DNA of 20,435 nt from a virus. Positions 6,026-18,362 of this stretch are shown here, piece by piece (within the stretch, counting starts at the first letter, position 1; each line of letters starts with the position of its first letter). The stretch covers positions 1-20,435 of IMG/VR virus record IMGVR_UViG_3300033149_001666. The stretch is one strand, 5' to 3'. Position numbers and translations under genes: made by a program. The notes under the pieces are model-generated. The model saw nothing but the letters and a program-made list of their open reading frames with translations, searched no databases and was not told where the DNA came from.

Positions 6026-6456
6026 AATTACCAGATTATCAATCAAGAATGTTACCGGAGGGGACTTATATTTTTACGCTTACAAAAGACCCGGAAAAAC
6101 GCAAGCGATCCGGTGAAGCTGGAGATTTTGTAACCGTATTATTCAAGTTTAAAGTTACCGGAAATAATGAGGAAAAACGGTGGCACTCAGAATCCTTTAT
6201 CCCCTGGAATGAAAATTATGGCCAGTTATTAAGGGCTTTGGGCGGCAAGGAAAGAGAAGATGGCACTATCCATTTAAGCGATAGTATTGATATTGTTGGG
6301 GCTTCGTTTAAAGCGGATATTATTCACGCAGAAGATGAGAGGGATCCTCAAAAGAAATGGGCGAGATTATCTAATATTCAAGTTGAAAGTGTCGAAAGTG
6401 ATGACGATACAAAGGAATTGCCAGTAGAAGATGATGAGGAAGAAATTCCTTTTTAA
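6022..6456 (+). CDS. Phage single-strand DNA-binding-like protein (DUF669-like)
   Basis: The 144-residue product has an OB-like pattern of strands (GTYIFTLTKDPEKRKR; DFVTVLFKFKVTGNN) and the typical phage sentence ending RLSNIQVESV. It closes with a strongly acidic tail ending DDEEEIPF, very like the DDDIPF tip by which bacterial SSB recruits partner proteins. It directly follows and overlaps the Sak4-like ATPase, a known pairing in phages. It would coat single-stranded DNA in replication and annealing. The exact family (DUF669 or another SSB type) is a judgement from pattern only. Confidence 0.75.
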   Translation: MKLPDYQSRMLPEGTYIFTLTKDPEKRKRSGEAGDFVTVLFKFKVTGNNEEKRWHSESFIPWNENYGQLLRALGGKEREDGTIHLSDSIDIVGASFKADIIHAEDERDPQKKWARLSNIQVESVESDDDTKELPVEDDEEEIPF

Positions 6457-6468
6457 CATGACAAACCA

Positions 6469-6538
6469 GGGCGCAGATGTTTAGTAAAACTTCATATCCC
6501 TCCTTGACGGCTATTTTTTTTGTCTGCGCCCTTTTTTT
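6469..6538 (+). terminator. Intrinsic terminator with a long loop
   Basis: GGGCGCAGA (6469-6477) pairs perfectly with TCTGCGCCC (6523-6531), followed by seven T residues. The loop is 45 bases, unusually long, and contains a T8 run. It ends the Sak4/SSB transcript and sits two bases before the next promoter box. Confidence 0.8.
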
Positions 6539-6540
6539 AC

Positions 6541-6569
6541 TTGACAAATGATTTATGGTTTAATATTAT
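6541..6569 (+). promoter_or_regulatory. Sigma70 promoter for a structured RNA
   Basis: TTGACA at 6541-6546, 17 bases, then TATTAT at 6564-6569. Transcription should start near 6576, exactly where a 12-bp pairing element begins. A terminator lies immediately upstream, so this is an independent unit. Confidence 0.75.
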
Positions 6570-6575
6570 ATAAAT

Positions 6576-6683
6576 ATGGATCATCAGAGAAATGAACGAA
6601 CAAAATAAAGCTCGCCTACCAGTCCGTCTTTTTGCCCCGTCGTGGGTAAATCTGATGATCCAGCTGGAGGCGGGCTTTTTTAT
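6576..6683 (+). ncRNA. Structured small RNA, possibly pseudoknotted, with its own promoter and terminator
   Basis: Three pairings can be read. P1: 6577-6588 with 6651-6662, 12 perfect pairs. P2: 6631-6637 with 6644-6650, 7 pairs including one G-U, with a CGUCGU loop. P3: 6607-6622 with 6664-6678, 15 pairs with one bulged A at 6618 and one G-U, followed by a U-run, so it also works as an intrinsic terminator. P1 and P3 interleave, so together they make a pseudoknot; P2 abuts P1. The A-rich 6589-6606 is a single-stranded linker. No protein frame of note lies here. It may be a free small RNA or an attenuator for the HNH gene, whose GTG start is 14 bases beyond the U-run. I do not recognise a known RNA family. 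Confidence 0.65.
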
Positions 6684-6696
6684 ATTGGGGGGATAA

Positions 6697-7185
6697 GTGA
6701 AACATTTAAGAATATTAAATAAAGAATTAAAAAAACAAGGGAATAAAAAATGTTACAAGTGTGGGAAAATTAAATCAATTACAGAATTTTATAAAAGGGG
6801 AAATACTGATTCTTATCAAGCTTTGTGTAAAAAATGTGTACTAAAATATTATCATGAAAAATGGAAAAAAAGAACTCCTAAAGAGAGAGAGTTGAGAAGG
6901 AAAAAATATAGACAATGGTATGATAAATTAAGAGATGAAATTATAAAAGAATACGGGGGAAAGTGTGGATGTTGTGGGGAAAAAAGAGTTGAATTTTTAA
7001 GTATAGACCATATTAATGGGGGGGGGACAAAGCATAGAAAAATCCTTGGCGGAGGAACGGCCTTTTTCCAATATCTTAGAGAAAACAATTACCCTAAAGA
7101 TAAATATAGAATTTTATGTATGAATTGCAATTGGGCAAGAGGAAGGTATGGATATTGTCCACATGAAAGGGAGAATCTCAATTAA
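6697..7185 (+). CDS. HNH endonuclease, free-standing homing type
   Basis: The 162-residue protein has an N-terminal zinc finger (C19-x2-C22 and C44-x2-C47), a basic linker, and a C-terminal HNH domain. The domain shows CGCCGE (90-95), the LSIDHINGGG motif with Asp104-His105, and RILCMNCNWARG (138-149) with the second zinc pair. It would cut DNA with a divalent metal. Such enzymes are common selfish insertions in phage replication regions. It starts with GTG after GGGGGGATAA, unlike the ATG starts of its neighbours, and its last codons overlap the start of the replication gene, consistent with insertion. Confidence 0.88.
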   Translation: MKHLRILNKELKKQGNKKCYKCGKIKSITEFYKRGNTDSYQALCKKCVLKYYHEKWKKRTPKERELRRKKYRQWYDKLRDEIIKEYGGKCGCCGEKRVEFLSIDHINGGGTKHRKILGGGTAFFQYLRENNYPKDKYRILCMNCNWARGRYGYCPHERENLN

Positions 7186-10833: not shown

Positions 10834-11027
10834 AAAAAATATATAGAATTACATTTAACGAATACACAAACGCTCTTAGAGATACTATTTATAATGAGGA
10901 TGAAGATCGATATTTAGACATACCGGATTTATTTTTAATTAAAGAAGGAGATGTCCAATTTTTTCAAGGGTATGGAGGAGGAATAAAAGAAATGAAATTT
11001 GTTGGGGAATTATATGAGAATGCTTAA
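10830..11027 (+). CDS. Small acidic unknown protein (65 residues)
   Basis: The product begins MKKIYRITFNEYTNALRD and contains acidic loops (NEDEDRYLDIPD) and a strand-rich end (DVQFFQGYGGGIKEMKFVGEL). It lies between the two glycosidase-like genes and overlaps the first by ATGA. No family recognised. Confidence 0.55.
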   Translation: MKKIYRITFNEYTNALRDTIYNEDEDRYLDIPDLFLIKEGDVQFFQGYGGGIKEMKFVGELYENA

Positions 11028-11052
11028 CCTAATTTTTATAGGAGGTTTAATC

Positions 11053-16900: not shown

Positions 16901-17391
16901 AGGTCCCGATATCAAAGATTAAGCCGTGGAAGGATAACCCGAGAGATATTACAAAAAAGGGATATAAGAGACTCTTAAATCAGCTTACAGAGCTTGAAAT
17001 CTATAAACCGCTATTAACTTGTCTTGAAAATGGATTCTATACGGTTTTAGATGGGAATAAGAGGCTTATGGCATTTCAAGAGCTAAAATATACTGAAGTT
17101 GAAATTGTTGTCGTAGAAGTTTTTTCCGAAGCTGATAAAATCAAATATTCACTATCAGCTAATGACAATGCGGGAATAACAGATGATCAGAAAATGGCAG
17201 AATTGATTTATCCGATAAAGGAAGAGATTAATTTAGATGATTATAGCATAAATATAAGTGATTCAATAGAAATTAGCCGGATGCTGGATGATTTTGCTCC
17301 TGGAGAGATAAAAGAACAGGCCCGGCTTGATAAATTAGCTGAGAAAGAAAAGATAAAATGTCCGGAATGCGGATGCGAATTTTTACCATGA
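16897..17391 (+). CDS. ParB-like (IbrB-type) protein with non-ATG start
   Basis: The open frame before the first ATG (17068) encodes the key ParB/Srx motifs: VPISKIKPWKDNPRDI, then YTVLDGNKRLMAF with the GNKR pocket. The domain is therefore complete only if translation begins upstream. The upstream in-frame stop is TAA 16888-16890; the only start-like codons are ATT 16894 and ATA 16897, the latter overlapping the preceding stop as ATAA. The product would be about 164 residues and ends with a zinc pair (CPECGCEF). Paired with the PAPS-reductase-like gene, it matches IbrB of the IbrA/IbrB pair, regulators in some E. coli prophages. Nuclease or NTP-binding activity is untested. Confidence 0.75.
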   Translation: MKVPISKIKPWKDNPRDITKKGYKRLLNQLTELEIYKPLLTCLENGFYTVLDGNKRLMAFQELKYTEVEIVVVEVFSEADKIKYSLSANDNAGITDDQKMAELIYPIKEEINLDDYSINISDSIEISRMLDDFAPGEIKEQARLDKLAEKEKIKCPECGCEFLP

Positions 17392-18362
17392 ATAAATTAG
17401 CAGAAGCAATAGCAAATGAGCCGGAATATAAGATTCCACATCGGGATCCTAAAAAAACCGTATTTACTGCAATAGGAAAAGATAGGATAAATCAGTCAAT
17501 ATCGATTATAGAAAGGGCATTAAAGCCAAACAGGAAGCCTTGCCTTGCCTTTTCCGGCGGGAGCGACAGTTCAGTTTTGCTGGATTTAATGTGTAATGCT
17601 GGATATGAACCAACTATAATCTGGGCTGATTCTCAAATGGAGTATCCGGGAACTGAGGAATATATTAAAAACATAGCAGATAATTACGGTCTTGATTTAA
17701 AGATAGCGATATCAAATAGGGCCCCAATGGAACAATGGAAAGCAACAGGCTGGCCTATGCTGGGGAAAATAGCTGCCAGGACTTGGATGCAGAAAAATAG
17801 AGGACAGATGGGATTTAAAATAAATGTATCAGAATGCTGCAGGGCAATGAAAATAGTACCGGCCCGATTAATGACTAAAAAATCAGGCTGCAATGTCCAG
17901 ATTACAGGGCAGAGGGGAAAAGCGGACGATAACCTAAGGGGATTAAGAACTATAAAAGACGGTGATCTGTATTTTCAGGTTAAAGATAATTTATGGATTG
18001 CCAATCCTTTAAATGGCTGGACTGATGCTGAAATTAATGGCTATATCAAAGCACATAATCTACCAGAGCATCCGGCCCGGATAAGAGGGGCCAAGACGAT
18101 AGGTTGCGTGTATTGCGGAGGTGGTAGCCAGTACACAAATTCAGGCTACCGAGTGTTGAGAAAAACCTGGCCTGAGGCTTGGCATCGTTTTATGGTAGAT
18201 TGGAAAGGGGGATTAATAATTCTTGCGCTTCGTTATAAAACTCACCTATATCATATCGAAATGGCCGTCAAGGAAATAGGCGGCCTTGGTTATATAGCAG
18301 ATAATATGCCCTGGCTGTTTGACTTTACAAGGAAAAAGCCGATATTAGGATATAATAAATAA
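17388..18362 (+). CDS. PAPS-reductase-like ATP pyrophosphatase (IbrA-type)
   Basis: The PP-loop CLAFSGGSDSSVLLDL (52-67) is the ATP-binding motif of the adenosine-phosphosulfate reductase/N-type ATP-pyrophosphatase superfamily. C150-C151 (SECCRAMK) and GCVYCGGG (C240-x2-C243) could bind an iron-sulfur cluster or zinc, as in DndC/IbrA relatives. It lacks a sulfate-assimilation context. The family, 324 residues here, is widespread in phages next to ParB-like genes; the role (sulfur modification of DNA or RNA, or regulation) is not established. ATG 17388 is chosen since it overlaps the previous stop (ATGA); 17358 would add ten residues. Confidence 0.85.
   Translation: MNKLAEAIANEPEYKIPHRDPKKTVFTAIGKDRINQSISIIERALKPNRKPCLAFSGGSDSSVLLDLMCNAGYEPTIIWADSQMEYPGTEEYIKNIADNYGLDLKIAISNRAPMEQWKATGWPMLGKIAARTWMQKNRGQMGFKINVSECCRAMKIVPARLMTKKSGCNVQITGQRGKADDNLRGLRTIKDGDLYFQVKDNLWIANPLNGWTDAEINGYIKAHNLPEHPARIRGAKTIGCVYCGGGSQYTNSGYRVLRKTWPEAWHRFMVDWKGGLIILALRYKTHLYHIEMAVKEIGGLGYIADNMPWLFDFTRKKPILGYNK

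Follow-up and report, generated by a model that had tools for sequence, protein, structure and literature searches.

A promoter-leader-terminator cassette with interleaved RNA helices recurs upstream of HNH endonuclease genes in uncultivated phages and may act as a transcription attenuator

An HNH endonuclease gene in the window, as the whole 20,435-nt stretch of DNA analyzed here is called (IMG/VR virus record IMGVR_UViG_3300033149_001666), is preceded by a compact unit that recurs in other phage contigs with an RNA structure which, we are very confident, has been conserved by compensatory change. At a probability of about one half, the sequences point to an autonomous promoter-leader-terminator cassette working as a translation-linked transcription attenuator, which would hold HNH genes and a few accessory genes low; that the unit keeps genes of DNA-cutting enzymes at low expression is probable. 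An attenuator for the HNH gene had been suggested in an earlier sequence-only reading of the window, and it stands as the best reading in view of the helices P1 and P3 with their U-run, the recurrent association with HNH genes and a leader reading frame running through the terminator, the last of which had been overlooked. The RNA family is apparently undescribed and displays clear compensatory evolution in uncultivated phages, and the presence of one regulatory cassette repeatedly before genes of various HNH subfamilies suggests a common way to check potentially self-damaging nucleases.

The unit lies on the plus strand and begins with a σ70-type promoter, TTGACA-17-TATTAT (6541-6569), composed of a –35 hexamer (6541-6546) and a –10 hexamer (6564-6569) separated by a 17-nt spacer. 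The predicted transcript starts at about the first base of P1, a perfect 12-bp helix detected by repeat analysis, whose 5′ arm (6577-6588) pairs with a 3′ arm (6651-6662) placed directly ahead of the 3′ arm of P3. Hairpin P2 (6631-6650, arms 6631-6637 and 6644-6650) was identified by folding and contains 7 bp including one G-U pair, while P3, visible by direct reading, is the intrinsic terminator, with its 5′ arm (6607-6622) inside the P1 loop and its 3′ arm running into the U-run (6664-6681). The promoter and the three helices had been described by the sequence-only reading and were all recovered at the same positions; only the perfection attributed to P3 (6607-6622/6664-6678) was not borne out, since A6618 is bulged and positions 6612 and 6673 form a U-G pair. 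The arms of P1 and P3 have no common bases and interleave, so that a pseudoknot is possible, as had been proposed, and a CAGCTG junction (6661-6666) is conserved. In every version of the unit, a TTGACA/TATAAT-type promoter with a 17-nt spacer is followed 5-7 nt past the –10 hexamer by P1, this helix being predicted to start almost at the first transcribed base, and an intrinsic terminator (a GC-rich hairpin, then a U-run) is likewise present in all versions. Among 20,000 dinucleotide shuffles of the window RNA, 20 contained a 12-bp P1 anchored at base 1 or 2, and the folding energy of this RNA (z = –1.99) is weak evidence taken alone.

Direct reading and repeat analysis placed the terminator of the preceding operon immediately upstream (6469-6538, arms 6469-6477/6523-6531 plus a U-run). 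It also occurs directly before versions A and A′ of the unit and is absent before C, D, E and F; it probably insulates the unit, as a neighbor rather than a component of it. The loop of this terminator (window 6478-6522, and the minus strands of loci L025 and L028 ahead of A and A′) carries a conserved ATATCC(C)(C)TCCTTGAC, an anti-Shine-Dalgarno-like CCUCCUU motif kept in three phages with differing flanking loop bases.

Six sequence versions of the unit were found across five phage contigs (G000, G001, G002, G004 and G017). Version A, on the 57-kb contig G001 (IMGVR_UViG_3300033145_001062), follows the same preceding terminator as the window copy and has a wholly different P1 sequence that is still paired. 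A scanner for promoter, P1 and interleaved terminator revealed that G001 also holds versions C, D and E, the last two of which have identical copies on G017 (3300033388_002884); A′, nearly identical to A, is carried by G002 (3300033143_003584), and version F by G004 (3300031355_000070). In the combined scan, real units scored 73-86, the next best match 60.5, and shuffled DNA yielded no match. No match to the unit was obtained among known phages by blastn or among plasmids, and Rfam returned no match above the gathering score in the window, so that the RNA fits no known Rfam family. When GTDB genomes were scanned with a strict pattern, the single match (L062) proved to be due to chance and devoid of the structure, and the pattern matches in IMG/VR were mostly due to chance.

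Comparison of the versions provided the decisive evidence for the structure. The P1 5′ arms read TGGATCATCAGA in the window, TGAGCTACCAAG in A and A′, TGAGACGCTGGA in C, TGAAAAGCTGGAGT in F, TGGATAGTATAA in D and AGAGAATAAGTATT in E, and the helix ranges from 12 to about 22 bp, the longest being that of E; the terminator arm lies directly 3′ of the P1 3′ arm in every version. The sequence-only reading had predicted compensatory changes in P1 and P3, and the alignment of window, A, A′, C and F (five sequences, four independent P1 versions) agreed with it: all P1 cells were paired, 10 of the 12 P1 pairs were altered on both sides, and the upper four P3 pairs covaried. The covariation score reached 0.764 against 0.381 ± 0.053 in shuffles, none of 500 being as high, and sliding the partner by 1-3 columns reduced pairing from 98% to 27-45%. 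P2 also held in this alignment, with 93% of its cells paired, as did the upper P3 pairs; manual inspection of alignment A5 showed the lower P3 stem to be paired in all versions, and this stem was excluded from the pair count owing to a one-column MAFFT shift in C and F that stems from the bulge in the window and A. A covariance search across related phages, the check that had been suggested, was made with a model built without the window; it recovered the window copy with 79.6 bits (E = 9.5e-16) and gave E-values of 1.5e-5 for a truncated remnant on G001 and 0.0074 for version E. Version D was missed by this model, and its kinship rests on the common architecture. Moreover, the best P1-like helix after nine other σ70-like promoters of the same phages had 9 bp and a score of 16.5, versus 24 to 44.5 in the units.

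The gene downstream of the window unit (6697-7185, plus strand, GTG start) encodes a 162-aa endonuclease VII-like HNH protein (PHROG HNH, 3.5e-18) with no Pfam match above the cut-off. Its match to HNH/endonuclease VII only is consistent with the earlier remark that the protein lacks RuvC. A G-run at 6687-6692, on the plus strand and outside the structure, would serve as its Shine-Dalgarno sequence (anti-SD ΔG –9.3). The placement of a structured RNA directly upstream of an HNH gene proved real and recurrent, given that five of the six versions (window, F, C, D and E) directly precede HNH endonuclease genes of different subfamilies. Every PF01844 match sits behind a unit (three on G001, one on G004 and two on G017, representing four distinct genes), and two weaker HNH-like genes on G001, of 211 and 152 aa, have no unit in front. 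Version A on G001 is followed by an 84-aa gene without known function, and the near-identical A′ precedes an unrelated gene in a second phage. This gene, located after position 3567 of L028 on the minus strand, encodes a YADPPWQF motif and presumably specifies an MT-A70-type DNA methyltransferase. At 21 loci of other phages with relatives of the window HNH protein or of the C and E HNH proteins, no unit was found within 700 bases upstream (265 bases only at L016). In view of these neighbors and of the 21 unit-free relatives, the cassette is regarded as a property of one phage lineage, mostly but not solely used for HNH genes.

When G001 was aligned with the window, unit E and its HNH gene proved to be part of a segment that is replaced as a block. 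On the minus strand of L025 (15294-15394, G001), a truncated unit remnant stands before a 114-aa gene, having lost the promoter and the P1 5′ arm and kept P2, the terminator and the AUG. At its 3′ end this remnant matches the window unit with 94% identity across 33 nt, which suggests that genes are exchanged at the units, these acting as joints.

A leader frame of 34 codons, MNEQNKARLPVRLFAPSWVNLMIQLEAGFFILGG, opens in the window unit with an AUG at nt 16 of the transcript (6592-6696, plus strand), crosses P3 and the U-run, and ends with a TAA (6694-6696) directly before the HNH GTG. The AUG falls exactly at nt 16 in five versions (window, A, C, F and E), and its maintenance while the surrounding bases vary suggests that it is a start codon. 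In the same five versions the leader frames comprise 32-38 codons and are stop-free through P3 and the U-run, whereas the remaining two frames contain stops in each of them; the product of the shuffle probabilities for stop-free frames was 3e-4, a figure in which independence is overstated by partly common ancestry. The leader stop adjoins the next start as TAA|GTG in the window, overlaps it as ATGA in A and is located within the downstream gene in C and F; in E it precedes the next start by about 10 nt. In version D the AUG opens just a 6-codon frame. The leader Shine-Dalgarno sequences are weak (ΔG –1.9 to –5.2), and the peptide is not conserved past P2, the P3 3′ arm being read in differing frames between versions.

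In the attenuator mechanism that we infer from these sequences, the outcome would depend on whether a ribosome loads early on the leader. In a ribosome-free leader, P1 would close over the weak leader start site once its 3′ arm is made, P3 would then form next to P1 as a pseudoknot, and most transcripts would be released as stable RNAs some 105 nt long. An early-loading ribosome trailing RNA polymerase would instead melt P1 and occupy the P3 5′ arm, allowing the polymerase to read through, and would end at or near the nuclease start codon; in the window, the gene so controlled would be the HNH gene at 6697-7185. This scheme resembles the pyrBI-type attenuator of E. coli, where an intrinsic terminator lies inside the leader gene and a close-following ribosome would prevent the hairpin (PMC4824070), and a leader frame overlapping an intrinsic terminator occurs in five of the six versions. 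Unlike pyrBI, the unit is found without a pyrimidine gene, its leader starts at nt 16, and a long-range helix anchored at +1 interleaves with the terminator. Against the attenuator stand the poor leader Shine-Dalgarno sequence in most versions, the short frame of D and the unconserved peptide, as well as the finding that ribosomes tend not to suppress a terminator lying within the initial 100 bp of a coding sequence (PMC4824070).

If the attenuator model is true, its geometry would be unusual, with a pseudoknot involving the very first bases of the transcript helping to decide termination. A more tentative extension is that the units constitute a new attenuator class, in which a helix at the first transcribed base might act as a timer. 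Leader initiation by ribosomes would be restricted to the time before the P1 3′ arm is made, P1 might then join the terminator in a coaxial, locked pseudoknot, and a single phage lineage would have redeployed the cassette ahead of various selfish endonuclease genes. The elements, namely attenuator, leader frame, pseudoknot and endonuclease restraint, are of known kinds; what appears new, as far as the searched collections go, is the RNA family and the way these elements are combined. For example, in T4-like phages RNA structures restrain the homing endonuclease genes I-TevI, segB and Aeh1 mobE (PMC2988022), and the unit shares with them an RNA structure just upstream of a phage endonuclease gene, which there limits expression (PMC2988022). 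In the T4 type, the ribosome-binding site of the gene itself is sequestered, whereas in the unit it lies beyond the terminator, the window G-run being past the U-run, and the unit has its own promoter and a P1 that covers the leader start. In version D, the P3 G-run could double as a ribosome-binding site.

Among the alternatives, it is unlikely, if plausible in several respects, that the unit produces an independent, trans-acting small RNA of the phage, with the downstream gene on constitutive low readthrough and the 5′-end P1 shielding the RNA from decay. The unit does have its own promoter and terminator, a strong structure and a 5′ end held in a helix, and version A stands before unrelated genes in two phages. 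However, outside the unit the longest match to the P1 arms in the same genomes is 9 nt and no pairing target was seen there, and such an RNA accounts for neither the HNH association nor the absence of stops from the leader frame. A guide or antisense role of the P1 arms was rejected as well, second copies not being found in the same genomes.

Folding calculations bear on how P1 and P3 are related. In the nascent RNA ending with P1, the predicted mean pair probability of P1 was 0.96-0.98 in five versions, and in version E the minimum free energy structure was the 22-bp P1. Energy calculations without pseudoknots predicted that P1 and P2 form before P3 in the growing RNA, and that the full-length RNA forms only P3 in four versions (window, A, C and F) and only P1 in D and E; in the window, full-length P3 reached about –36 kcal/mol versus –28 for P1. 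These pseudoknot-free folds mean that P1 could instead oppose termination, that is, act as an antiterminator which forms first and blocks the terminator kinetically or topologically, until a factor or ribosome removing P1 lets P3 stop transcription. The order of folding and the greater stability of full-length P3 in window, A, C and F would fit this proposal, which we consider improbable, because P1 and P3 have no common bases, unlike classical antiterminator pairs, and because P1 is the more stable helix in D and E, so that the balance would be opposite between copies. Pairing of loop L2 with the P1 3′ arm was not above chance, and a classical switch by competition between these two segments was accordingly discarded. 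The simplest view is that P1 and P3 coexist in the same RNA, as their arms never overlap and their 3′ arms adjoin in window, A, C and F. In these four versions U6623 and G6663 are conserved, and a wobble pair between them could close the gap and let P1 and P3 stack end to end; by rough length estimates, L1 (16-20 nt) and L2 (8-10 nt plus P2) would be long enough for such stacking.

Also improbable is an RNA antitoxin of the AbiF or type III kind, in which the 105-nt RNA in excess would bind and inhibit the nuclease made from a rare readthrough transcript. The layout is close to that of RCd22-abiF in the C. difficile prophage phi027, a phage locus with a SigA promoter, an ncRNA of about 100-130 nt, a terminator, a ribosome-binding site and a potentially toxic gene (PMC12373285), and since the RCd22-abiF RNA also binds its protein (PMC12373285), a trans-acting role of the unit is conceivable. 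Nevertheless, the genes behind this one RNA family comprise HNH genes of several subfamilies, a methyltransferase gene and one unknown gene, a diversity that a single RNA-protein pair does not predict, and the unit has a leader frame and no abiF motifs or repeats. In particular, a classical type III antitoxin was rejected, as tandem RNA repeats are absent from 6440-6720, Rfam gave no match, and the downstream proteins are HNH proteins for which PADLOC yielded no ToxN or AbiF match. The chance of a guide-like RNA for the HNH protein, the HEARO/omegaRNA link to IscB on which the sequence-only reading had speculated, is negligible: structured RNA 5′ of an HNH gene and 12 variable nt at the 5′ end are in its favor, and the defining features contradict it, since the variable arm is always self-paired, the RNA is far smaller, no HEARO model matched at E ≤ 10, the HNH subfamilies differ, the other four HNH proteins matched HNH families and none RuvC or IscB, and non-nuclease genes follow version A.

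Some further features of the window were observed apart from the unit. A repeat of about 33 nt, AATGCTTAACCTAATTTTTATAGGAGG, was detected at window 11019-11051 and at six sites in the minus strand of L025 (12037-13670), ahead of many genes; it contains a mini-frame, MLNLIFIGG, with an embedded Shine-Dalgarno sequence, runs into the next start codon, and in its sequence resembles a reusable translation-initiation cassette. The frame at 2274 opens with a perfect peptide duplication, MKDEKLSIAMKDEKLSIA (2274-2327), and a PAPS reductase family gene (PF01507, 9e-24) is located at 17358-18362, near the terminase genes.
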